From assembly GCA_027574665.1 (NCBI GenBank), contig CM050665.1, forward strand, positions 992,001-1,056,000: DNA of 64,000 nt. The letters run 5' to 3'. The stretch comes from Rhynochetos jubatus (lineage: Eukaryota > Chordata > Aves > Eurypygiformes > Rhynochetidae). A program made the translations under genes and the position numbers. Positions within the stretch are counted from its first letter, which is position 1; every line of letters starts with the position of its first letter. Positions 3,869-58,129 of the stretch are shown in pieces. The notes beneath the pieces are model-generated. The model ran no database searches, was not told the origin of the DNA, and saw only the letters and a program-made list of their open reading frames with translations.

Positions 3869-5935
3869 ACAACACGGCTGCGGTGCACACCCAGAGAGTG
3901 GGCTTCAACCGGCAGGAGCAGGACGTGTACTTGCTCCCCATTTTGGTGGTGGACAGCGGCCCCCCGGCCCTCAGCAGCACGGGGACCCTGACCATCCGCG
4001 TCTGCGGCTGCGACAGCAGCGGGGCCATCCAGTCCTGCAACAGCACAGCCTACGTCGTGTCCGCTACGCTGAGCCCCGGCGCCCTCATCGCGCTGCTGGT
4101 GTGCGTCCTCATCCTGGTCGGTGAGTGCCCTGTCCCCCCGCCTCCCCCAATCCCTCTGCAGCAGCATCGCTCAAGCGAGCGCAGGCAGAGACTCCGCCTG
4201 TCTCCTTGCTGGTGGCCGCAGCGCGGGGGGCAGGACGCCCAGACCCGTGCCAGCGGGGGACCAGCGGGGAGGGTCCTGTGTTGGTCCCAGCCCTGTGTTG
4301 GAGCCGGCCTCCCTGGAGAGCTGTGGGCTCGCTCCCTCCTCGCTGTCGGGAGCCGGGAGCTGCTTGCGGCAGGGTTCTTGGAGCACGCGTGTCCCAGCGC
4401 GGTGCCCGTCCCCACGCGGTGCCCAGGGCGGCAGGCGTGGCACTGTCACCTTGGGGCGCTGGGAGGGTCTGTGCCGCTGCGCCTGCACACGTGGGCAGGA
4501 CACGGCGCTGGGGTGTGCGCAAACCGGAGCATTGCCCGTGCTGGGACCTGCGCCCTGGGAATGCTGCGGCTGCCGCCCACGCACTGTGGCCACAGCACGG
4601 CATGAAGGCGCAGGGGAGTCACGGGCTCGTGTGGGAAGGGGCTCGGGGGTGTTGCAGTGCCCCCAGGTTTAGCACAGGGCAGGGGATGGACGCTGCTGCC
4701 AGAAGCCCTTGGGCGTGGGTGCTGGCTCCTGAGGGCTGTCCGGACGCTGCGGAAGCCAGCGCGTTGTTCCGGGAGGTGTCTCCTTGGCCCAGCTCTGCTC
4801 CCGGCTCCTGCCACGCCTCCGCTTAGGAAACCCTTTCCCACAGGGTGCACTTCACACCGGTTTCGTTTTCCAACGCAGCGCAAACCAATTTCTGCCTAAT
4901 TGCCCAGACGAGTAAAGCGCAGCCGGTGCTTCGGAGGTGATGGGCTGAGCGGGTGACGATCCGGGACACAGCTGCGGCTCGCCGCTCAGGCGCCGCGCCA
5001 TCTGCTCCACGCTCGCCCTCCCCTTCGGCTGCTGCTGTGATTCACGCACCCCCTTTTCCTACTCAGCTTCTGCAGAATCCATCCGTCTGTCCAGCTGCGC
5101 GTCCATCCATCTGTCCCTCCTGTCTCAGCGGTCGTGCCGCGTGGCGAAGGAAGCTCCCGGTGTGCACCGGAGCCCGGGCCAGCCTCTCCCAGGCAGCGAC
5201 ACTGCTGCTCCGTGTGAGGCCTGGCCAAGAGGAGCACGCTCCCGGTGCCAGTGGCTGCAATGCTCCCGGTGCTGGCGGGCTCAGCTGCGGCGCTCCCGGT
5301 GCCAGCGGGTGCTGCACGCTGCGCTGAGCACGGTTCGCCCTCGTGCCCGCAGGAGCGCAGCCCCCGCGCCCGTCTGACCATCTCTTCCCTCCCCAGTGTT
5401 GGTCCTTCTGATCCTCACGCTGAAGCGGCACCACAAAAGCCACCTGACGTCCGAGGACGACGAGGACATGCGGGACAACGTCATCAAGTACAACGACGAG
5501 GGGGGCGGCGAGCAGGACACGGAGGCCTACGACATGTCAGCCCTGCGCAGCCTCTACGACTTCAGTGAGATCAAAGGCGGCGACGGAGGGGGGGGCCCAG
5601 GAGAGGGGCCCCCAAGCGGAAACCCGGCCTCCCAGCTCCATGCCCTCCCACAGTGGGTGCAGAGCCCGGACCTGGACTTCTCCGTGTTCAGAGACTACAT
5701 CTGCAGGAAGGTGGCGCAGGCGGACGAGGACCTCTCCGTGCCACCCTACGACTCCTTCCAGACCTACGCCTTCGAGGGCTCTGACTCCCCCGTGCCCTCC
5801 CTGAGCTCCATCAACACCTGGTCCAGCGGCTCGGAGCAGGACTTCTCCTACCTGGGGGGCTGGGGGCCGCGGTTCCGGCAGCTGGCAGCGCTGTACGCTG
5901 GGCGCAGGGGCGAGCAGGACAGCGAGGAGTCGTAG
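3869..5935 (+). CDS. CDH22: Cadherin-22 (type II cadherin), last two coding exons
   Basis: Type II classical cadherin, a calcium-dependent homophilic adhesion protein of the plasma membrane, mainly neural in mammals. Exon 3869-4120 (252 nt) encodes the second half of the last extracellular repeat, with the type II phrase DVYLLPILVVDSGPPALSST and the EC5 cysteines (CGCD...SC), then the start of the membrane segment (GALIALLVCVLILV). Donor GTGAGT is at 4121. Exon 5397-5935 starts after CCCCAG, continues the membrane helix, and carries the cytoplasmic tail to TAG at 5933-5935. The juxtamembrane p120-catenin region (RDNVIKYNDEGGGEQDTEAY) and the distal beta-catenin region ending near WGPRFRQLAALYAG are both recognisable. 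The tail has a glycine-rich insert (GGDGGGGPGEG), typical of CDH22 rather than other type II cadherins. CD40 and NCOA5 downstream support the assignment. The 5' part of the gene lies left of the window. Confidence 0.95.
4121..5396 (+). other. CDH22: CDH22 last intron
   Basis: The intron is 1,276 bp, with donor GTGAGT and acceptor CCCCAG, in phase 1: the final G of exon 3869-4120 joins TG of the next exon to make a valine codon. A small (CCATC)-like run sits near 5080-5125 and short repeats of a CTCCCGGTGC-type motif lie near 5235-5310. I see no further exon. Confidence 0.85.
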
Positions 5936-43097: not shown

Positions 43098-44742
43098 GTA
43101 AGTCTGCGGGCGGGCGGCGGCGCCCCGCGGTTCTGCGGCGGCTTCGCGCGGGAGCGCCCCAGTCAGAGGCCCAGCGAGCCTCGTGGAGGGCCGAGTCCCT
43201 CCCGGCTGGGGCTGGGCGGGCCGGGCGTGCCCCGCGGCCTGCGGCCCGGCCTCCGCCTCACGGCCCGGCGCGCCCGGGGAGCGGCAGCGGGCAGCGCGGG
43301 CCCGTTGGGCCCCCCCGCTCCTCGGGCCGGCCGCTACGCGGCGTTAACGCGGCTGAGGAGCGCTTTTCCCCGGGCGGGTTCGTTGTCGCGGTGAGCGCGG
43401 CCCCCGGCAGCGCCTGCGGCCCGGTGTGAGCGCGCGGCGGGCACCGGCGGAGCGCCGGGAACGCGGTTCTCCCGCCGCTGCCGGAGCCGTGAGGGGGGTC
43501 CTGGGCGGCTGCGGTTCGAGGGGCGGAAGGCGAAAGGGTTCTCGGCGGTAACGCCTGCCCGCGGGCCTGCGGCGGGCGGCTGCTGGTGCTGCCCGAGAGC
43601 CGCCCGGTGCTTGCGGTGGCGGCCTGCCGGGTGCGTCTTGGCTCTGGAGCGCTGGGAGCCGCTGGGCAGTGCGGGGCGGGAGCCTTCTTGCTCCTCGGCA
43701 TCCTTCCGCTCCGTGGCGGCGGGCGTTAGTGTTTCTGCCTGGCCCGGGAACTCCTCGGCCCCTTCTGCGTCGCGTTTCCCTCGTGCCAGGTTAGTTCTGC
43801 CCCTCCCTTGGGCCGCGTTTGCCTGCTGAAGCTGTAGCGCTGTCAACAAACCGCTTCCCCTTTAGCCGTAACGCTTCTGGAAGCGCGGTTTTAACTAACG
43901 CCCGGCGGACTGGTTGGCGCGGGAGCTGCCGTCGGCTGTGCTGTGCTAGGAGCCCGCTCAGCCGGCCGCTCGCCCTCGGGGTTGGCACCTTGGGGCGCGC
44001 CGTTGGCCTCTGGGGGCCCTTCGCCGTGTCGTGCCCCGAGCGGGGAGCGGCAGGAGGTGGTATCCTCCTGTGCGGGGGTTCCCTGGTCGGTGTGGTGGCT
44101 GGGATTTGCTGGCCGGCTTTGAAAGGGACCCACAAGGGGTAGCGCAGCTCCCTGGTTTTCCGCATATGGAAAACTGGCACCCTCTTCCCCAGCCCCTCCC
44201 TGCTGTCCCCACCCTTAAGGAAAAGAAATCCCTTACTGTTTTTATACTGAAAGTTCTGCCAGCAGCAGGTTGGGTCTCTGGCGCCTGTTTGCCGCGAGCG
44301 CGCGTACAGGTGACGCTGCGGCTGCTCGCCGGGGCTCCGGGTGCCCATCCCTGGTGCTGCTGGTGGTATTGGGACGCTCCTTCCCCTCAGCCGATGGGAG
44401 CTGAGGCTGCAGGAGAAGAGAAATGGGGTGCTTCCGTACAGAAAAGTGGGAGAAGGTGTGGTACCTTGGCAGGTGAAACTGTGCGTACGAGCTCCGGGGA
44501 GGGTCGAGGCAAACGTAGAAGGAATCAGCTTTCTGGGAGTTGGTTTTGGTTGGGCTGGTGGCTCTTTCCCCTCTCTCTTCTGGCAGTTCAGGTCATTTTA
44601 AGAAGGTGATTAGAGGGGGGGCGTTCTCTGCCTCCCATCCCTGCGGGGTTTCCTGGGAGGAAGGTGATGTGAGTGCGAGGCGGGTTGCTGTTCAGCCCCA
44701 GGGGCCGCGCACCTCCCAGCCGCACGCCTGCCCCCTCCCCAG

Positions 44743-45174
44743 TGTCATGGGGTGGAGAAGACAGGGAGACTCGTGGGGCGGGGTAAGAACAGTTTAACTG
44801 TTGGAAGGACGTGAAACAGCGCAGCCGACAAGGCTGACGGTACTGATCCTTCTGGTGTGCTGCTGGTGTGTGATGGAAGTAACGGAAGGGAAAAGAGATG
44901 GCAGAACCGCTCACCGCCCGATGCCCAGCCTGAGCCTCCCCCCGCCCGTGGCGTTCGGCCTGGCACGTCCCCTGGGTCAGCCTGGTCAGCTCTCCGGGCT
45001 GTGTCCCCCCCAGCCTCCGGTAGGGAAGGCGCTGGGAACACGGGGGCAGTAGCCAGACTGGGAAAACGGCCTGGGTTGGCATAAACAGCCAACCCGTCAG
45101 TGTTATCAGCATTCCCAGCTCGGCCTCGTACGAGCTGCTGCGAGGGAAACTCCGTCCCAGCTCAAACCAGCCCA
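44743..45174 (+). mobile_element. Diverged solo LTR of an endogenous retrovirus
   Basis: It starts TGTCATGGGG, has AAGAACAGTTTAA early, GAACCGCTCACCGCCCGATG in the middle, CAGTGTTATCAGCATTC late, and ends CCAGCTCAAACCAGCCCA. This order of motifs matches an LTR family I remember as common in songbirds and other neoavian birds. No internal retroviral genes are present, so it is a solo LTR left after recombination, heavily mutated. The family name cannot be given without a library search. Confidence 0.7.
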
Positions 45175-46268
45175 GGCTCTTTAGTCTTACCCCCCCGAAT
45201 TGTATGGCTGGAGCCCGGGGTGATGTGTTTGGTGGCAGCTCAGTGCTGGAAAAGTACTTAGGCGGAAGGGGTTTGCGTTTTGGGGCGTCTGGCCTGTGGA
45301 TCTCGAGGGAAGGTTCGAGCGGGGGGGCTGCGGTGGGGGCGCGTTGGTGTGCGTGCCGCCGGGGAGCCCTCGCCGGGGAGGGGACGTGCCCAGCGTCATC
45401 GCCTTGTGCTTCCCAGGTTCCCTGCGTGTTAGGGATGGGGAATCCCAGCCTGCCCTTGGAAGTGTGGGGGCGTTGGTGGACGATCCCGTGGTCAAGCGTC
45501 CCAGCCCGCCTGGGGGGTTGGGTGCGTCGCGGTAGTTGGTGGCATGGTGACTCCAAGCCAGAAGGTGAGCGTGGGGTGTGCGGCTGGCACGGGGGTGTGC
45601 TGCCGGTGGGTTTGCGCGGTGAGGGGTGCCGACTGCTCCAGCTTGGGCTGCAGCGGCGTGGCTTACCAAGGGCGTGGAGGTGTAGGGGTGCAGCACCCAC
45701 GCGGGGGCGGTTACCCCCCAGGCTCTGGGCACGCCTTCTGTGGGAGCGGAGGGTGCTGTGGGGACAGGCCCGGGCTCTTTCGCAGGGGCGTGAGCGAGAA
45801 CCTGTGTGTTCTGGTACTGGGAAGCTGGGGTATCCCATTCGGTACAGCGAAGCGAGCCGGGTCGCTCCGGAGCACTTGCGGGGGGGCCTGGGCCCCGTTG
45901 GGCAGCGCTGCGGGGAGCGGCGCCTTCCCGCCTGTCGGAGCGTGGCGCGAGGAAACAGCTGTGACTGCAGTGGGTGTGTTGAGACGCTTCCAGTTAGGAT
46001 GGTTTAGTGGAAAATGAGCTTTGTTTGTATCTCAGCTCAGAGTTATACCGTGACAGCTTCTGCGTGAAACAAGGAGCCTTACGCCTGCCGTGTCGCCCAG
46101 AGCTCAGCCGGGCGCTGCGGGCCACGCTCCGCCCGCCCGCGGGACCCCGGGCGCCAGGGTTCCTCTGGAGTCACGTTTGCGTCAGGCGTGGCGCCTGCAA
46201 GGCTGTTGGCTTTGGGCAGTCGGATGTAGGGGATTGGGATTGCACGCGTGGCCGTTTCTCTCGGGAAG

Positions 46269-47022
46269 GGTTGGATTTGGAAGGCAAACCGGCTCGAGGA
46301 CCCAAGAACAATAGCGTCAGAGACCGCGGCTTCGCTACCGGCTCCAGCCCTCAGGATTTAGAGGGGAGACTCTTTATCGGCAGTTTGCGCACGGACTGCG
46401 TGACTCGGGACGAGGTGGAAGAGAGGTTTTCAGAATACGCCAAAATCAGGGGTTCGTATGGAACCTTCGGCCTTTCTGTGGCTGGGGCTCAGCGAGGAGG
46501 GAGACTCCTGCCGGTCAGATGCTGTTGGTGGTGAGGAGCGACTGGTGGTGTTCGGGAAGGTGGCCTGTCAATGGCAGTGTTGGCTAAAGAAAGCGGTTGC
46601 TGCAGCGGGCTGAGGCGTGACGCCCTCCCTCTGCGCCGTTTGCGCTCCCGGGGCTGCCGCGTGGTGTCACGGTGCTCTCTAGGTGCCCTCGGAGTCTCAA
46701 CCTGGTCGCCTCGCGGGCTGTGCCTGGTCCCCGCCTCGGCAGGAGGGGTTGATCTCCAGCCTATTTCGGAGTCTTTACGCTCTGCGTTTTGATCCTGGCA
46801 GACCCGGTTCTCCCGGGAGCCCTGCTCAGCCGGCGGGCTCAGGCGGTGGCCTGGGCGCGGGTCGTTGGTGTCCCTGAGGTGTAACCCGTCTTGCCCCGCC
46901 GTTAACTCTTGCGGCCCTCGGCATGCACCGTGGCTATGGGTCCGTGCGGTTTGACTGTCTGGAAGATGTCCAGGCCGCTCTGGATGGCGAGAAGGGTCGC
47001 CTTGAGAAAGGGGATGGATTAG
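46269..47022 (+). CDS. NCOA5: Candidate upstream NCOA5 exons encoding an RRM (two exons, possibly decaying)
   Basis: Segment A, 46269-46451, reads 60 codons including NNSVRDRGFATGSS and LFIGSLRTDCVTRDEVEERF, an RNP2 box (LFIGSL) plus helix 1. Segment B, 46915-47022, reads ALGMHRGYGSVRFDCLEDVQ then AALDGEKGRLEKGDGL, an RNP1-like box plus helix 2. Both start and end in phase 1. B has a good donor (TTAG|GTAAGG) and joins the acceptor at 50300 to read GDGL-DINKAVERRNMNKASSR, which completes strand 4 and runs into the conserved NCOA5 start. Problems: the base pair before B is GG where AG is expected (a CTGAG at 46874-46878 could serve instead, adding 12 codons in frame), the donor of A (GGG|GTTCGT) is weak, RNP1 has Ser for an aromatic residue, and no initiator exon was found. 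It is either an N-terminal RRM isoform or its relic. Confidence 0.55.
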
Positions 47023-50000
47023 GTAAGGAAACCTGATCCGTGCTCCCCCCGCCCTAGCATGTGTTCTGGCTCCGGCGCCGCTGCTCTGAGCCTGCTCTCG
47101 TGTGTCAGCCCTTGCCAAGCTCTACCCCCGGCGTAAGAAGGCGTTCCACGCGGCAGCGCTGGAAGGCAGCGGCTGCACCGCATCCGCGTGGATTCGGAAT
47201 CGCTCGGGAGCCGGCACTGGGCCCGTCGCGGTGGGTCGGCTGCGCGCGGGCGACGGGGCTGGGAGCGGTGTGGTCGGTACCGGGGCTCGGCAAGGGCCGT
47301 GTTCGTGAGGGTGAAAATAACTGCTGCCTCTGCTGGGAGCCGACAGGGAAATGAGTGGCTGGAGATCCAAGAGGGACCTCCAGGTGCCAGGAAAAGCCGG
47401 ACTTCCCCAGTGAGCCTGTGCCCATTTGAAGAAGGACCTTGCTCGGGAAGGAATGGAGGAGCGGTGAAGGGTGACCTGTGGGAGCGGGGCGTGCGGGACC
47501 AGGCCCAGCCCGGAGGAGGAGGGTGAAGGGTACGGCAGGCGGTTGGGGCAGCGTGGCAAAGGCTAGAGCGTAAGTGGGAATAGCTTTGGGAGCTGGAAAT
47601 GGTAACGTTGGAACTGGAAAGGGCCGCCTGGCCCTGGTTGACGCTTCTGCTGCCCCTCTGAAGAGCAGGCAGTGTTTAACCCTTGCCATGTCAGTGGGAA
47701 AGTAAGAAAGGCACAGCAGGAGCTACCGCAACCGGACCTCGCCAGGGGTTAGCCTGACCGCCGAGCGCTGCAGAGCTGCCCTGGGCTGCTGCTGGTTTGC
47801 CACCATCCTCGGGAGCCGGGGGGTTTGCGGGGAGCTGGCAGAGCACCGCAGAGGTGCGGTGGGCAGCACCGCTGGGGTGAGCCCCTGACGGCAAAGGGCC
47901 GCTTTCACCCGATAGCCAGCGAGAAGGCGTTAATTAACGCAATCAGAGTAAGTCCTGACTAACTCATCCCTACGACGCTGCGGTTCCGTGGCTGGCAGTA
48001 GCGGTGTCGACGTCGGCTTCCCCGAGATGCTTGGCTTCATTAAGAAGGTAGAGCAATTAACCCCAGCGTAGGGGTACGGGGATTTCAGCTGAATCTCGGG
48101 GTGGAGTCACTGATGGTGACGTGGCCTGGGGTCTTCCTGAGCTGGGTGTGAGCAGAGCCGAGCTTTCGGTAAAGCCCGCAGGGACCCCCAAAGCGCTTCT
48201 GTTGTCCTCAGCTGGACTAGCCACAGGTTTGTGAGCGGGGAGGTGTTGGTACCGGGGGTTGCTGCTGGGGTACGGTGTTCACTTCTGGTGTGCCTGGTTC
48301 AAAAAGAACGTGCTGAGTTGGGGAAGCCTCAGAAAAGCCTGCAGGAGGGCAGAGGGGCTGAAGAACACGGCTGAGCAGAAGCTGGAGGCACAGGAGTGAC
48401 GTGATGGGTGTTACAGCCCGACCTGCGTGCGAGTGAGCTTTGGCCCAGCAGGCGTAGGCACGGCACGGCCCAAGTGGCGGCAGACAGGTGAACAGCAAAG
48501 CGCTTGCCTTCTGGAATGGTCGGTTGAGGTCTGGTGGTTTCTGTGCTCCGGAGTTTTAAATTGGATGTTTTGCTGAAAGCCAAGCTCTGGTTCTGCCCGG
48601 AGCTGGACTGGGATTCCAGAAGCCCTGGTCAGTGTGTTCGGGTGATGCCGTGCTACAGGGCCCCGTCATCTCGCGTCCTGCAGATGGAAGACTTGGGCTT
48701 TTCCCCGGAGCTTTGTCAGCGTGAAACATGTAACCTGTAAATGCTGTTGGCATGAAATAAACCGTTACCACCTCGGTGGGGTTTGCACGAGAGAAGGGGC
48801 CCGGCCAGAGGGGTGTTTTCTTCCAGGGAAAGAGTTTTGTTCAGCCTTTGTTCAGTACGGTTTTTTATTTGAAAGAAATGTACGTGTTGAGTGTAAAAAC
48901 CACGGCCGGTGTCTGCGCCCCACAGAAAATAAAATCGTCTTAAACCAAAGGGCAGACAGTGTCTTGCTTAAAGACAGCGCTGGACCTGAAGGGGGAGGAA
49001 CTCCCGACATAAAGGCGTGAGAGCGCTTGCCTGCGTTGCGCAGCCAGACGCGCGCCGTACCTGGACGGCCACGGGCAGGCCACGGGCTGTGCCGTCACAC
49101 CGATCCCGGCACGGCGCGGGGAAGGACTCCCTGGCCTTAAACTGCGCCGGGAGCGGTGCCCGTCACATCCAGTTGGTGACGGCGCAGCTCCGCTCCGTCC
49201 CGGACAGCCTGCGCGGTAGTCCCGCGCGCGCTGCCGCCTCGCCCTCCCCCAGGGAGAGCGCGCCGCCGCTTGGGGGGCTGCGGGAGAAGAGGGACTAAGC
49301 CGTTAACTCCCGGGTTGGCCTCAAAGGTAGGGAAGGATAGTCGGAAGGTACGGAGGACGCTAGGACAGCCTGCCTGGGCGCTGCGGCGCGGTTATTCTCT
49401 TGCAGGAGCTTTGGGAGTAGTTCCTGCAAATAACTGACAGGCAATTCCAGTTGTGGACTGGCTCTGGGGGAGCAGGTAGGGCCTGGGTGTGCCTTGTTCT
49501 TTTCCGTGCACGGCTCCCAGTAAACACCCAGGGTCGCTCCCGTTCTTGCCCCTCCAGCGCGTTGCTGCACCTCAGGCCACTGTTAGGGCAGGCGTTGGTC
49601 CTGCGCAGGTGGGCCCCGGCCTCCTCGGGCAGCCTCGCTTGTTCTGGCTGAGGGCGACTGTTGCCCAGCTCTGCCCGTGCTTCCCCCCGCGGGGTGTTCG
49701 CGGAGGTGCTCAGAAGCCAGCCAGTTCTCGCGCTGCCGATCGTTGCACCGCGTTACAGTGGTGGTGTGAATGGCCTTGGTGACTTGTACTTCAGGCTCCC
49801 GGGTCCCCGTTCCCTCCGTGGGGGTGGCTGTACGGCCTGTCGCTGCAGCAGCCCGCTGGAAAGGGTTGGCTGTGCCGCTTGAGCCCTTGGATGGTTTCCA
49901 GCAAGGCTGGCGGCATGCTCCCTGGCCAGGACCAGACGGTGCTGGCCATCAGCTCCCTCCCTGGAGGTTTTCAGACCCTGCCTTTTCTCCTAGAGTCCAT

Positions 50001-50147
50001 GAGTCGCTTTCTGCTCGCTCATAGACTGCAGAAGAAAGAGCTGCTCTTACGGAGTGAGGAGTCTGGCTGTAGGCCTGAACACAAGGGGTTAAAACCGCCC
50101 CCGAGTCACATCCATGAAAATTTCGTGCCGCTGTACCCTCTGAACTT

Positions 50148-50153
50148 AATAAA
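50148..50153 (+). terminator. Possible intronic poly(A) signal upstream of the first conserved NCOA5 exon
   Basis: AATAAA in CTTAATAAAAACTTGTC, followed by GT-rich sequence (GGGTGTTGCTGGGCGGATGT) 50-70 nt downstream. It lies 150 bp before the exon at 50301, so use would truncate any transcript starting further upstream. It may be fortuitous. Confidence 0.25.
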
Positions 50154-50300
50154 AACTTGTCAAAGTGGCAATGTCTCTGCTGATGGATTTTCTTGCACCA
50201 CCTGGGTGTTGCTGGGCGGATGTTGCTGTCGTTTGAATTGTGCTGATGACCTGTTTTTTGTTCCGTAGCATTGAACGGATGGGTTGATTATTCTTTACAG

Positions 50301-53300
50301 ATATTAATAAAGCAGTGGAAAGAAGAAATATGAATAAGGCTTCATCAAGGTCCAGTCCGGCACGAAGGTAAAGTACCCGGAAGCAGTGAGTTGTACTCGG
50401 AAGGTCAGGCTTCTAGGGCACGAGCCCGGCAGCCTGTGCTAACTGTCTGTGTCTCTTCCCCACCACCGCCCCCAGTCCAATGGAGATGCTCAAGCGAGAC
50501 AGGCAGGACGTGCGGCTCCTCCGTGGAGAGCCCTGCTGGCGCTGCCCCCGCGCGAGGCGCGAGGGAAGCCTCGTGTCTGCTGCTGTTGCTGCAGCTGAGC
50601 GTGTTGTGCAGCACGGCGTGAGAGCTGGGGAAGAATGCGCTTGATCTTTGCTCCTGCCTGGAGAAGCCGAGGCGTAGCTAGAGAAGGGCACCAGACCGCG
50701 GCATTCCCGTGCTGCAGAGGACTTGGGGATCTTACGTCTTGTGGTGTCGGAAGCTTCCAGCGCTGAAAGACTGGAGAAGAGCGTGTGAGCGAAGCACAGG
50801 ACGGAGCAAACGTCTCTGCGCTGTCCCAGCTGCGTGCTTGTGCTCTCGGTACCTGGAACCAGGCCCCCGTGCCCTGAGTGACGTCTGCCTGCAGCCTCTG
50901 CCTTCCCATCCCTCCGGCGGCACAGCGTGCGCAGCTCCGGCACGTCCCCCGGCGAGGGGAGAAGACGTGTCCTCCAGAGACAGGCCAGGCCGACTTCAGT
51001 TTCCTTCCCAGGGCATGGCCCGGGAGCATGTGGAGCCCTGCGGGGTTACGGTGCGGTGTGAGGTGTGCAGTGCCTGTGTGGCAGTGCGGTCACACGAGGG
51101 AGCGTGGGTGAAGGTAACCGAGCTCTCCGTGTGTGCTCTGCTCCGCTAACCTGGCCTCTTAAATTACCAAGAATGGGGAAAACTGCAACCAGCAAGACCT
51201 CTCCCACTAAAACCCCGAATGAGCGGCTGCAGCCCTTGGCATCGACGGGGTCCTGTATGTGCTGTGCTCACCCTGCTGCTGAGCAAACGCACGGGCAGAG
51301 GCCGGCGCGTGGGCATCGCCCAGGAGCCCTTGGGCACCCAGCTGGGAGCTCCTGTCGCAGTGCGGCCAGCCTTGACCCCGGCGTCCGGTGCTCTGCTGGC
51401 ACCGGGGCCCCAGAGTGCGTGGGCACTGGGGGCACGTCTCCAGCCTTGGTGGCTCGGGCAGTGTGTAATGCTGAAGGTGCCGAGTGGCCTGCGGCTGTGG
51501 GAGGCACCTGTGCCATGAGCGTGGGTCCTCGGACCACGCTGCTGAGGGACGAGCAGCAGGCACCGATGCCACGGGCATTGGTAGCTGTGTCACCCTGCGA
51601 GAGCAGGTGCCGGCGTCACGGGCCTGAGGAGCACTGGCGCTCCGTGAGCTGGGGGCACTGGGCAGTGGACTGGACAGCCGCCACGGATGCAGAAGGCGTT
51701 GGTGCCGCTGGATTTCAGCTGGCACTGCGGACAGTGTACCTGAGCCATGCTGCCAGCACTGTGGCATGGGTGGCGACAAGGTTGTGGGCACCGGCCCTGG
51801 GCAAGGCCATGGGCACGCTGACGGTGACGATGGGCTCCGTGCCACGCCACGGGCATGAGCGAGGGCTCGGATGCCAGGCTGCGGAGTCCCCCGCGGTGCC
51901 AGCGGTACTGTGTCCTGGTGGATGCGAGCAGCGGGGCCGGCGCTGCAGGAGTCCACCCATGGGGACGGGGAACAGAAGGGTGCTGGTGCCGCTGCCCCTG
52001 CGAGCGACAGGGCCGCAGTGTGGGCCCAAGAGCGGAGGAGACGCCGCCACCCTGCGCTGCTGCCGCAGTTCTGCGTTGCTTGGTCCGGATCTCTGTCTGC
52101 TCAGAGGCTGGATGTGGCCAGGCTGGTCACCCTGCTCCAGCCGGGAGAAACGGCTCGTGCCGGCCAGCCGCGCGGCGTCTGCCTGGTTTGCTCCCCAGTG
52201 TACGGCCACGGAAAGGTCACATCCTCGCTCCCCGCTAGAGCGAAGGCATCTTCCCTGAGCTGCTGTCCTTCCTTGGAGGCCGGGTGAAGGGGGCGATGGC
52301 GTGATCCGTATCACACCGCATCCCAGGAGAGGCGCAGGAGGCGGATCTGTGTGTCCGAGAGGCTGGAGGAGCTCGCGCCGGTGCCGGGGGTTTCCCTTAC
52401 AGCGGGAGGCTGTACGTGCTCGTGCTGGCAACGCTGGTTTGCCCCAGGATCCCTTTTGTGACGGACACACGGCCAGCGTCCCAGCGTTCCCGGGTGTCCC
52501 CAGCACGCGGGGTGTCGCCGCAGGCTCTGCATGTCGTCCCGTTACTGTCGCCCCAGCCGATACGGAACGTGGGCCCGGCCGCTCCCGCTCCTCCTCTGCA
52601 GGCGGCGGCCGTGTGACCGCGCTGCGGCGGGAGCGGCTGTACGGTCGCTTCTCTTCCACAGGCCACGTCAGGCTGCAGAGGACTCGCTCCATCTCGTTTG
52701 GGAAATAAAACGGTTCGAAAAGCTGGGTTTTCCGGTGTTTGTCAGTGTCTCGGAGAAAGAACGTTCCGCACGTGACGCTCAGTGGTTTCTCTGCGATGTT
52801 CTTACGGTTTGGCTTAGACTGCGTGAAAGTCACGGGGGTTTCTGGAGAGCAAAGTATGACCTGGAAAAATCCTGCTCTTGGGGAAAAGATGAAGACTGGA
52901 GCGTTACTCTTCCTCGCCTCGAAGACAGCGCAGTGCGGCCTGAGCGAGCCAGGTCGTGCAGATGTGGCAAAGGACCCCGTTGCCGCCGAGGAAGCGGGGC
53001 TGGTTGGGCTTAGCACCCCCTTACCCTGGGGCGTTGTCGATGTCCCTTCACGTCCTGGACTCGTGGCAGCTGGCGCCGCTTTCTGCCGGCAGCTCAGGCC
53101 CGGCCTTGCCCCGGGCCCGGCCGCACCCGTGGCCGCAAGCCACGGTTTGTGTCGGTTGTGCCGCTGTCACGGGCTCGTGGCTTTGCCGGATCCCTGGGCT
53201 GCCCCTGCCTGGTGCATATTTGTGGGCGTTGGGCTCCTTGGCCTCGCATTCCCTCACTCCACGCTGTTGGGTGGAGAGTCTGTGCCGGAGGCCTCGGGAC

Positions 53301-56300
53301 GGTGGTTCGAGGTGCCTGTGCGCTTCCTCCGCGGGTGCCGCCGCTTGCGGTGCCGCTCTGTTCAGGAGCTCGCTGGGTCTGGTTTGTGTGACGGACCCTG
53401 GAGCTGAGGGGCCTCTCCACAACGGCGGGGTCGGGGCAGCTGTGGGCAGGAGGGAGGAGGCAGCTGCCGCAGCGGCACCGCAGGTAAGAGCCATAGGGGT
53501 GCCGGTGGCGGCCTGACGGGGGTTCCCCGGTGTTTTCCTCAGGGAGCCCTTCGCCTACGGGGACGGCCGAGATGCCAGACGCGACCGCTCCCCTCTTCAG
53601 GGGAGCCCACGGCGAGACCCCAGGGACGGTAGGAACGGGCGAGATTCCAGAGACGCACGAGACGTTCGAGCGAGAGACCACAGGGACCCGCGGGACCCTC
53701 GTGACGTCAGAGATCTCCGGGACCCACGGGAGCCGCTGTACGATCGGTACAGGGACCCGCGGGACGTGCGCAACCCACGGGACGTGAGGGACCCTGTGTA
53801 CAGGTAACTCCCGCGGGATCGCGCTGCTGACGGGCCTGCCGTTCCTGCGGCTGTGCCGGCTGCCGGGGCAGTCGGGTGCTTTGCCTCTCGTGGGGGGCGG
53901 GTGGGCGCTCCGGCAGTTGGACCTGAGCCGGGGGGGGGGGGTCTGCGCGCGGGGCGTTGGCAGAGCTGCTGCCCGAGCCGGCGCCTGGACAGCCTTGTCT
54001 CTCGCAAACGTCGCAGGCGAGATGAAGCCTACGACCGGTACCTTCGCGTGGAGGACTACTACCGGCGGAAGGACGACTCTTACTACGACCGTTACAAAGA
54101 GCTTTTCGACAGGGCACCCGGCAGTTCCGAAGGTGAGTACCTGCCCGCTGCCGCGTGCGCTGCGTCCCGGGATGCTCCGGGCAGGCCCAAAGGGCGTTGT
54201 TTGTCCTGCCCGCCGCTCGCTTTCAGACCGTCTGACGCGTGAGGAGCGGCGCCGGGAGGAGCTGTACCGTCAGTACTACGAGGAGATCAAGAGGCGTTTC
54301 GATGCAGAGAGGCCTGTGGATTGTTCTGTGATCGTGGTGAACAAACAGACCAAGTAAGACCGCGCTGACGCCCGGGTTGGTTACTGCGCCGTCGCAGCAG
54401 TCGGCAACGGACGCGGTGCTGCCGTGAGGCTCTCTGTCGTGCAGGGTGGTGTGGAGCAACGTGGCTTTCGAGCCCTCCCAGAGCCGCAGCTCCTGCGCCT
54501 GCTCTGGGGACACGTGTTGATGAGATGGAGAGGCGTTGCTTTGCTGCGATGTCCCGCGTGTCCTTGCTCCGCTCCTTTCCCACCCTCGGTGTCAGCACTG
54601 CCAGTTGTGGCGCGCTGCGCTCGTCACTCGTGGGTAGGGTGCTGCAGGGCCGGTGGCTGCGTGCCGGCAGCGCGGGGGCGGCGATCGAGTCGCGGGGGGG
54701 CTCATTTCGGATCCTGGGGGTCAGTTACTGGCCCTGAGGCCCGTCGTTCCCGCCAGTCCCACGTGCAGGGCACACGGAAGCTGGCGGGGCAGGCGCTGTG
54801 CGGGGCCCGCGGTGCACCGGCGCCTTGGGGGCGGTCGGGGGCACCGCTTTGATGGCTGAACGCATCGCAGGGCTGGCTCGGAGTGCGAGGGAGACGCTTG
54901 TCAGGGGGAGTGTAAAGGCTTGTCCCCCCAGCCCTGCGGGGGGAGCTGGTCGTGGTGATGCCGCGCGGGGCGGCGGAACGGGAAACGAAGGGCTGCGATT
55001 TGTGCTTTGTGAGCTGGCACCTGCGGAGCCCATCCTGGACGGGGCCTTCGGGTTCTTCGTCCCACAGTGTCAGGGTCCTGGGGAGGCTGCTCCGATAGCC
55101 CGCACGTTGTACGTCGCGGGGAGAATTGACTGGGGCGAGAGGATCAGCGTAACGCCCGCGGGGTGGTGTTGGCGCGCGGCAGCCGCAGGCCCTCGGGGCT
55201 GAAGCGCGTCGATAAACCCGTGCATCGCCGCGTGTGCCGTGCTGAAGGATGGCTCCAGGGGGGCTTCGGTGCGTGGGGCTCGGGAACCCCTAAAAGGACT
55301 GTTGGCAGGGAACAGCTTCAGTCACATTACAGCGTTTGCAGCCGAAGAGGATGAACCGAGCTGCTTGCAGACGGGGCGGCTGCGCGGGCCCGGCACCTCG
55401 GGACGCGTGTGCCGGCGGAGCGGCAGGTTTGGGGCCAGGCCCAGCGGCCTCGGCCCAGCTCAGCCGGGTGAGCCGTGGCTTGTGCGGGGCTGGGAAGTCG
55501 CGGGGCAGCGAATACAGGCGCAGCGGGTCCGCGGGGGCTCTGTGGATGCCGGCTCGGAGCAGAAGGCGGAACGGGAGAGCGGGGCAGTGAGGAGCGGGCG
55601 CGGGTGAGCAGCGAAGGCGCTGAACTCGGCACAAGTAACCGGCTGCTGTGGGCCGGCCACTCTGCTGCGCGCGACTTGGCCCTGCGCGGGCACGAGCTGC
55701 GCCCTCCAGGGCTCGCCGAAACAGCAGGGGGGTTTCTGGGTGCGCGGAGCCCGTTGCGGGCGCTGCTTCCCAGCCAAGCTCGGCTCGTGATGCGTTCCGG
55801 CTGAACTGGGTGGGTGCACACCGAAACAAGGGCTTCTCTGGTACCCTCGTGGGACCGCCCGGGTGCTGTCCCGTGAAACGCCACCGAGCGTGCAGCCCTC
55901 GAACAGCGAGCCCGGGGGGCGGGGGGGTGCGGGGAGCAGGGGTGTCTGTTGCTGCCTGACTGACCTGTTCAACTCTGCTGGCTTTGCTTTGTGGTAGGGA
56001 GTACGCGGAGTCAGTGGGGCGGAAGGTGCGGGATCTGGGCATGGTAGTGGACCTGATCTTCCTCAACACAGAGATGTCGCTGACGCAAGCCCTGGACGAC
56101 GTGAGCAGAGGAGGGTCTCCCTTCGCCATTGTCATCACCCAGCAGCACCAAGTTCACCGCTCCTGCACCGTGAACATCATGTTTGGCACCCCACAAGGTA
56201 CGGAGGTCTTGGCAGGCCGTGCGGCTCTCAGGGGCTGGGCACCATGTCTGGAGCGTGACCGTGGTAGTTACCAGATGCTGATTTGTCCCTGTCCAAAGGA

Positions 56301-58129
56301 CTGCCTCGTTTCCGCAGGGACATCTCAGCCCAGCTCCGAGCACCCCACTCACCCCGCTCCTGCCCTCCCCATCCCCCCCGCCGTGTTACGGCGTTGGCAG
56401 AACCAGAAAGCGTTCCCATGGCTGCCCTGCTCTGCGAGGCTTCAGCCGCTGTCAGAGACCAAGTCTGGGCTCTGTCCATGGCTTGAGCCGTAGAGCAGCC
56501 GGGGCCTGGGCCCATCTGCTCTTGGGGCAGGGTAAGCAGGAGGCAGGGGGAGCTGCTTCCCCTTTGCTGGGCGAGGGGCAGGACAGACATTCCTGGGGCT
56601 GATCCGGCATCTCGGGGCCCCCGGCTGTGGGGGAACGGGTGGCCTTGCGGGGCAGCGGCCTTGAACTTCGGCTGCCTTAGGAAGCTAAAGCGTGCCGGGA
56701 AGCTGCCTGGGCCTGCCTGCGGAACGGGCCCAGGCGCGGCGCCGCCCGGTAGCAGCGCTTCCGTTCGCTCACGGCGTCGCTCTCCCTCGTGCAGAGCACC
56801 GCAACATGCCCCAGGCCGACGCCATGGTGCTGGTGGCGCGGAACTACGAGCGCTACAAAAGCGAGTGCCGGGAGAAGGAGCGTGAGGAGATCGCTCGGCA
56901 GGCTGCCAAGATGGCAGACACCGCCGTCCTGCAGGAGCGCCCAGCGCCCACCGAGGAGGGCGTCCGAGGGGGGCACCCTCCGGCCATCCAGACGCTGCTG
57001 AACCTGCTGGCAGACAACCGCTACCTGACGGCCGAGGAGACCGACAAGGTCATTAATTACCTGAGAGACCGGAAGGAGCAGCTGCTGCGCGGAAGCTCAG
57101 ATTCGCTGCAGGGTGAGTCCAGCCCCAGAGAGGGTGGCGAGTCCTGGGGCTTGTGGGCCGGGACCCCAGGACGGTCCCAGGACGGCCGGGGGGTTGCGTT
57201 TACCCTGGTGGGGGTTTCCTCGGGAGTCCCGGCACGGTGCCCATCTCTCCCAAGGGAAGAACTTCGCGCTGGGTTCCCTGGGGGAGCCCCGGCACTGCCG
57301 TAACCGGCGGGGCTGCCACGAAGCGCCGGGCGGTTGGGGTTCCCAGCGCTGCGCACTCCGCTCGCGGGGGCCGGGAGGGCTCGCTGATGCCTGCAGCTTT
57401 AGCAGCGGTTTCGCTGGGTTCCCGCCGTGTCCCTGCGGGTCGCTCGCAGAGCTCTGATGCCCTTCCCTTTCTTTCCCAGCCCCCATGTCGAGGCAGCCTC
57501 TGGCGGCGCCTCCTGCCTCATCTCTGGGCGGTCAGTCCGGCCTTCCGAGCACCCAGGCGCATCAGGGCGCGCAGCCTCTGGTCTTGGCTCCGCCTGCTCC
57601 AGCGCCCTCCTCCACCCCCCAGCAGGAGCTTCAGGCCAAAATCCTCAGTCTCTTCAACAGCGGAGCGGCGTCGGTGCCCGCCGCCACCAGCGGCTCCGCC
57701 GCCCCCGCCGCCACTTCGGGCGGCACTCCGAGCCAGAACTTCGCCAGCGTGGCCGGCGGGCAGGCCCGCCCGGCACAGATGAGCGCTGGCAACTTAAACC
57801 AGGCGCAGCAGAGGCTGCAGACTCCGAGCACGCAGCTTCCTGCTCTCCAGGGCCCTCCCAGAAACGCAGGTCCGAGACCCGGCGCTCCTCCGCAAGCTCA
57901 GCCGCTCTACGGTCAGCACCAGAACCGCCTCCCCGCACCCACCAGCGTCCCTGCGCAGAGGCCGATGTCCTCTGGGATCAACTTCGACAACCCCAGCGTG
58001 CAGAAGGCCTTGGACACCCTGATCCAGAGCGGCCCGGCGCTCTCCCACCTGGTGAGCCAGACGGTGGCCCAGGGGCGAGCGGGGTCCTCGGCCCAGCAGC
58101 CCCTGGGCTCCTACCAGCGACACTATTGA
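50301..58129 (+). CDS. NCOA5: Nuclear receptor coactivator 5, complete by its conserved start, 7 coding exons, 569 aa
   Basis: Nuclear coregulator of estrogen receptor and related receptors. Coding segments: 50330-50367, 53543-53803, 54017-54132, 54227-54353, 55998-56197, 56795-57112, 57480-58129. All introns are GT-AG and phases agree; total 1,710 nt with stop (human 579 aa). ATG at 50330 gives MNKASSRSSPARR, aligned with human MNTAPSRPSPTRR. Residues about 14-100 are Arg-Asp-rich repeats (RDPRDPRDVRDLRDPREP). Residues about 168-270 form the domain related to the anticodon-binding fold of class II tRNA synthetases (VDCSVIVVNKQTKEYAESVG, then VVDLIFLNTEMSLTQALDDV). The LxxLL nuclear-receptor box is LLNLL at 315-319. 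The tail is Ser/Pro/Ala/Gln-rich and ends in a conserved block, NFDNPSVQKALDTLIQSGPA to GSYQRHY. The exon at 50301 is open upstream of the ATG, relevant to the RRM exons. Confidence 0.96.
50368..53542 (+). other. NCOA5: NCOA5 intron between the start-codon exon and the RD-repeat exon
   Basis: The intron is 3,175 bp, from donor GTAAAG to acceptor TTTTCCTCAG. The part from about 51280 to 51980 has a decayed repetitive look, with recurring GGCACCGRYGCCACGGGCAT-like phrases at roughly 45-50-bp spacing. No exon is recognised. Confidence 0.75.
51280..51980. repeat. Possible decayed minisatellite, about 45-50-bp spacing
   Basis: Phrases such as GGCACCTGTGCCATGAGCGT, GGCACCGATGCCACGGGCAT, GTGCCGGCGTCACGGGCCTG and GTGCCACGCCACGGGCATGA recur at irregular but similar spacing. 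Divergence is high and a self-alignment would be needed to define the unit. Confidence 0.35.
54354..55997 (+). other. NCOA5: NCOA5 intron within the anticodon-binding-like domain
   Basis: The intron is 1,644 bp, from donor GTAAGA to acceptor TGTGGTAG. It is GC-rich and has no recognised exon or mobile element. The next intron, 56198-56794, is also without features that I can see. Confidence 0.8.

Follow-up and report, generated by a model that had tools for sequence, protein, structure and literature searches.

In the kagu (Rhynochetos jubatus), two exons that encode the halves of an N-terminal RRM in the NCOA5 gene of other birds very probably survive only as relics in intron 1, left by a lineage-specific loss of the domain, with the short, RRM-less form as the only NCOA5 of this bird. 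The long, RRM-bearing NCOA5 of birds, turtles, and crocodilians is an annotated isoform that is already known and runs through DINKA.ERRN into MNKASSR; what is new is that the kagu genome departs from the RRM-bearing NCOA5 of other birds. The features discussed here, all located in a window of 64,000 nucleotides from kagu contig CM050665.1, are collected in Table 1.

Table 1. Features at and near the kagu NCOA5 locus (positions in the window).
Feature	Position	Strand	Content or state	Basis
Cadherin cytoplasmic domain ORF	5378-5932	+	About 40 kb upstream of NCOA5	E 2.9e-20 to EP-cadherin
Putative relic exon A	46269..46451	+	Linker and first RRM half (RLFIGSL...KIR)	tblastn with bird NCOA5 N-terminus, E 7.5e-16, 55% identity
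Site of the MARGR Met (initiator codon in other birds and turtles)	46289..46291	+	CCG	Protein comparison
GT after exon A	46452..46453	+	Weak donor (GGG/GTTCGT)	Compared with general donor consensus
Nearest AG upstream of exon B	46877..46878	+	Would give an in-frame exon B from 46879, 12 residues longer	
Exon B acceptor site	46913..46914	+	GG for AG	Placed by inference from the KIR/ALS junction in other birds' proteins
Putative relic exon B	46915..47022	+	Second RRM half (MHRGYGSVRF...KGDGL); good donor (TAG/GTAAGG)	tblastn, E 4.5e-12, 71% identity
Candidate exon D	49994..50068	+	75-nt cassette (ESMSRFLLAHRLQKKELLLRSEESG), both ends in phase 1; in-frame ATG (MSRFLLAHRLQKK...)	
NCOA5 exon C	50301..50367	+	In other birds, supplies the RRM end (DINKAVERRN); short-form start codon at 50330	
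NCOA5 body exons	53543-53803, 54017-54132, 54227-54353, 55998-56197, 56795-57112, 57480-58129	+		Gene model

NCOA5 lies on the + strand, and the gene ends at 58129. The coding exons from 50301 on yield a modelled protein of 569 residues that starts with MNKASSR and equals, in every letter, the kagu record P0034, which has the same start and no RRM. A genome search found exon 7 at a single place in the 1.33 Gb kagu assembly, and with a body equal to the kagu NCOA5 record the locus is the NCOA5 ortholog. A second kagu record (P0035, 91% identity) was considered as a paralog and ruled out, as it agrees with the body in the window apart from mis-set exon ends and two substitutions and does not represent a second gene; its coverage stops short of the RRM exons. 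No RRM-bearing kagu NCOA5 record was present among the matches listed (best 120 of 429). The window contains no Rfam family at gathering thresholds, and there are no tandem repeats at 44000-51000.

The NCOA5 N-terminus of the harpy eagle matched three places in the window, exons A, B, and C (tblastn, E 7.5e-16, 4.5e-12, and 1.1e-8), the next match standing at E 2.5. Exons A, B, and C follow one another in this order on the + strand and form one open frame, in which the A/B and B/C joints are both in phase 1; the sequence-only reading, which had reported this agreement of strand, order, phase, and open frame through exon C, is borne out here. The same reading had taken two segments of intron 1 for consecutive halves of an RRM. 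Indeed, the joined A+B+C passes the Pfam RRM_1 model (PF00076) with 25-27 bits by joint and 27.3 bits at best (cut-off 20.7), the halves failing singly (11.8 and 15.1 bits), and a search of 5.8 billion sequences with the joined protein led to a song sparrow match (E 2.4e-32). Judged by these comparisons, the homology of exons A and B to the NCOA5 RRM is far above chance.

Among solved sequences, those closest to the intact avian NCOA5 RRM are RALY and hnRNP C (PDB 1wf1 and 1wf2, 57.9 and 55.8 bits), and this best match, together with a shared intron position, assigns the domain to the hnRNP C/RALY type. A RALY-like RRM exon on the same kagu contig (L003 1231-1611), whose name rests on its likeness to 1wf1, stops one base past the codon of the last Leu, so that its end matches that of NCOA5 exon B at 47022 in both residue and phase, whereas the RALY RRM is contained in one exon and that of NCOA5 is divided between two. 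The equal end residue and phase suggest that the RRMs of NCOA5 and RALY share an origin. As a control, the RALY-like RRM of the kagu is intact, with 2/65 differences from 1wf1. RALY and hnRNP C also align through the LDIN stretch equivalent to exon C, which shows exon C to continue the RRM; in view of this match and of the RALY-like exon end, the earlier proposal that the exon at 50301 completes the domain holds. hnRNP C binds U-rich RNA, and by analogy the NCOA5 RRM may do the same.

These searches also bear on a reading in which the window holds a decayed duplicate, with an intact, RRM-bearing NCOA5 located elsewhere. With exon B as query, the kagu assembly yielded the decayed exon at the NCOA5 locus (74%, E 1.9e-8) and, weakly, the RALY-like exon (44%, E 0.6), so that neither exon B nor exon 7 has a second close copy in the assembly. 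Searches of the assembly with these two exons thus gave no support for a duplicate, and the intact NCOA5 body speaks against it. The cadherin ORF upstream, which is probably CDH22, agrees with the gene order CDH22-CD40-NCOA5, and this also counts against a decayed duplicate, which is very unlikely.

With regard to other animals, a search with an intact bird RRM retrieved 32 proteins at E 0.001 among 186 candidates. The part of the RRM encoded by exon B is held by 22 of the 32, of which 21 have the whole RRM and one (P0025) starts within the part encoded by exon A; the other 10 hold the first RRM half only, the result of in-frame skipping of exon B. These half-RRM forms (P0023, P0024, and P0026-P0033) are from duck, goose, eagle, the frog Ascaphus, and turtles (six records). 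Most of the matches start with MARGR (27/32), and 18/32 start with MARGRKSNS. Lizards, snakes, and mammals are absent from the 32 matches, which is weak evidence since the search required shared 5-residue words; mammalian NCOA5 is not known to carry an RRM. Among 124 collected NCOA5 proteins, 12 (kagu's included) have the short-form start MNKA or MSKA, and 64 are partial records from exon 3 on and thus uninformative on the presence of an RRM. NCOA5 isoform X1 (e.g., P0011 of Harpia harpyja and P0013 of Caretta caretta) resembles the kagu locus in gene, in the frame into MNKASSR, and, as far as proteins show, in its junctions. Unlike the kagu, with its CCG, its GG acceptor, and 62% mean identity to 13 birds, it keeps the Met, and its full-RRM matches share 94-99% identity with the sparrow-based query.

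In fish, salmon NCOA5 has been described as RRM-bearing, and the three salmon NCOA5 peptides listed in that report match the body and not the RRM (PMC3598971). Zebrafish ncoa5 is reported to have two forms produced via alternative start sites, a long one that carries the RRM and is ovary-biased and a short one that lacks the RRM and is testis-biased (PMC9501657). As described in these reports, fish ncoa5 is thus like bird NCOA5 in having a long form with one N-terminal RRM and a short form without (PMC9501657, PMC3598971), but in fish the form is set by an alternative start site in the gonads, while in the kagu the RRM exons themselves have decayed. The isoforms of birds, turtles, and crocodilians and those published for fish contradict the outcome that would have spoken against the initial proposal, namely, that no NCOA5 outside mammals has an RRM. 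Its expectation that birds keep an RRM-bearing form agrees with the 22 of 32 proteins that hold the half encoded by exon B, although the isoform was already annotated and the kagu itself has lost the signals to make it. Among the papers listed on NCOA5 in birds, on NCOA5 together with RALY, and on the kagu genome (10 of 12), no title or abstract opening mentions RRM loss in kagu or bird NCOA5, and those listed on NCOA5 and an RRM are the two fish reports.

In the kagu, the start codon of the RRM isoform is absent, as CCG stands in place of ATG and neither exon A nor its open frame of 179 codons contains a Met. Just upstream of the initiator site, 4 more bases seem to have been lost (17 nt in the kagu versus 21 inferred from the sparrow protein, measured from a TGG-ATT-TGG stretch). 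The acceptor of exon B has GG; the donor of exon B and the acceptor of exon C look intact, and the donor of exon A, judged by eye and not scored by a program, matches the general consensus poorly. The splice junctions proposed initially are right in their phase, but position 46915 is preceded by GG, and position 46879, which follows an AG, places a 12-residue insertion, free of stops, inside the RRM domain. With the start codon and one acceptor gone and conserved domain residues lost, the kagu most probably does not produce an intact RRM form.

The protein sequence has diverged as well. Over the 90 residues that run from the start Met through exon B, the kagu differs from the bird consensus at 34, and in the domain core at 20/64; the replacements include N32S in RNP2, F64S in RNP1, I46R, and G51A. 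The RNP1 aromatic residue makes RNA contact, and the GYGFVQY that is found in 22/22 exon-B-holding proteins of the RRM search has become GYGSVRF. In an alignment of the kagu, 13 birds, and 5 turtles/crocodilians, from which 4 of these 22 matches (P0002, P0018, P0020, and P0025) were omitted because of truncated or altered ends, the kagu has unique changes at 29/82 RRM-exon positions conserved in at least 90%, and the other 18 species have 0-3 of 79-80 apiece. For the NCOA5 body, unique kagu changes (15/402) are inside the range of the other species (0-21), and the excess in the RRM exons over the body is significant (Fisher p about 1e-14). Mean RRM-exon identity is 62% between the kagu and the 13 birds, compared with 98% among birds and 95% between birds and turtles/crocodilians. 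The Pfam score of the kagu RRM (27.3 bits) is far from those of five relatives with the whole RRM (46.5, 50.6, 50.9, 51.5, and 52.5) and close to those of two half-RRM forms (20.2 and 24.4). Domain loss in one bird, while the domain hardly varies in the other sampled species, is modestly surprising.

The RRM isoform is present in other birds, and the kagu might have an ordinary, intact one whose odd bases are errors of assembly or base calling. Differences at 34/90 residues without an indel are unlike random sequencing error, and the body agrees with the separate kagu record P0035 save for its mis-set exon ends and two substitutions (P0035 omits the RRM exons), which makes this explanation extremely unlikely.

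Some features of the changes in the putative relic exons are those of neutral decay. Positions common to NCOA5, RALY, and hnRNP C were changed in the kagu as often as others (8/27 versus 12/37, p 1.0), which suggests that key sites had no protection, and about 26 of at least 39 inferred base changes are from A/T to G/C. This bias and the G+C content of these exons (0.585), close to intron 1 (0.61) and lower than the body exons (0.66) and the window (0.69), were likewise counted toward neutral decay. Between 46289 and 47022, the inferred base changes are also strand-asymmetric (A>G 15.3 versus T>C 3.0, raw values uncorrected for base supply). Pure neutrality, however, was not fully supported. 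In neutral simulations, whose figures are rough since the ancestral codons were guessed from kagu codons, 12-27% stayed stop-free, as the 270-nt coding stretch has done, with neither stops nor indels. Only 1/40 stop-free simulations with an equal number of replacements (1/20 and 0/20 by batch) reached an RRM score of at least 27.3 bits. Changes were fewer in the core than in the linker (20/64 versus 14/26, p 0.057), with 20 or fewer core changes in 6.8% of neutral simulations, and the unchanged 15-residue run of the kagu RRM was reached in 1.3%; replacements as mild by BLOSUM62 as those of the kagu occurred in 10%. The unbroken frame, the retained RRM score, and the fewer core changes imply that the sequence was under some constraint during part of the lineage's history, or is so even now, and the likeliest history is that constraint was relaxed first and the signals were lost later.

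The same observations could be taken to mean that the exons are still used, with exon B entered via the acceptor at 46879 and translation begun in an upstream exon or at a non-AUG codon, giving a fast-evolving, altered RRM. The open and unbroken frame would fit such use, as would the next upstream AG, which is in frame and brings in no stop, the strong donor of exon B, and an RRM score above that of 39/40 neutral simulations. On the other hand, the open frame that surrounds exon A has no Met in its 179 codons, the 12-residue insertion sits inside the domain, RNP1 Phe has become Ser alongside I46R and G51A, deeply shared positions are unprotected, and the kagu matches listed (best 120 of 429) include no record with the RRM. 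Continued use is therefore unlikely, and it is quite unlikely that the kagu has a remodelled RRM, spliced via 46879 and translated from a new upstream or non-AUG start, whose RNA specificity has changed in this one bird.

Between exons B and C, candidate exon D is identical to the song sparrow prediction P0001 at 22/25 residues and is present in 1/124 collected proteins. Its 3/25 changes (versus sparrow) compare with 34/90 in the RRM exons (versus bird consensus; p 0.016), the two yardsticks being different. If joined to exon C, exon D would give an alternative N-terminus.

The loss of the RRM in the kagu may be envisaged as follows. In birds, turtles, and crocodilians, exons A and B and the start of exon C together encode the hnRNP C/RALY-type RRM of the long form, and the short form starts in exon C. 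In the long form, an hnRNP C-like RNA-binding module is presumably attached to an RD-rich coactivator; the form without exon B would retain half of this module, and the short form would lack it altogether. On the way to the kagu, selection to keep the long form would have eased; exon A then probably lost its start codon and exon B its acceptor, and replacements accumulated, RNP1 Phe to Ser among them. The long transcript and RNA binding by this domain would then be absent from the kagu, and translation is plausible only from the Met at 50330 or the ATG of exon D.

The RRM is near-constant in the sampled turtles, crocodilians, and birds, yet one bird seemingly lives without it, and the kagu loss would separate the role of the RRM from that of the rest of the coactivator. 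The half-RRM splice choice, in which exon B is skipped, is annotated in birds, turtles, and a frog. The kagu offers a natural loss to compare with mammals, whose NCOA5 is not known to have an RRM, and with fish, in which the RRM-bearing form is reported to be ovary-biased (PMC9501657). It also advises caution, since an NCOA5 model without an RRM may, in some species, reflect a true absence and not an annotation gap.
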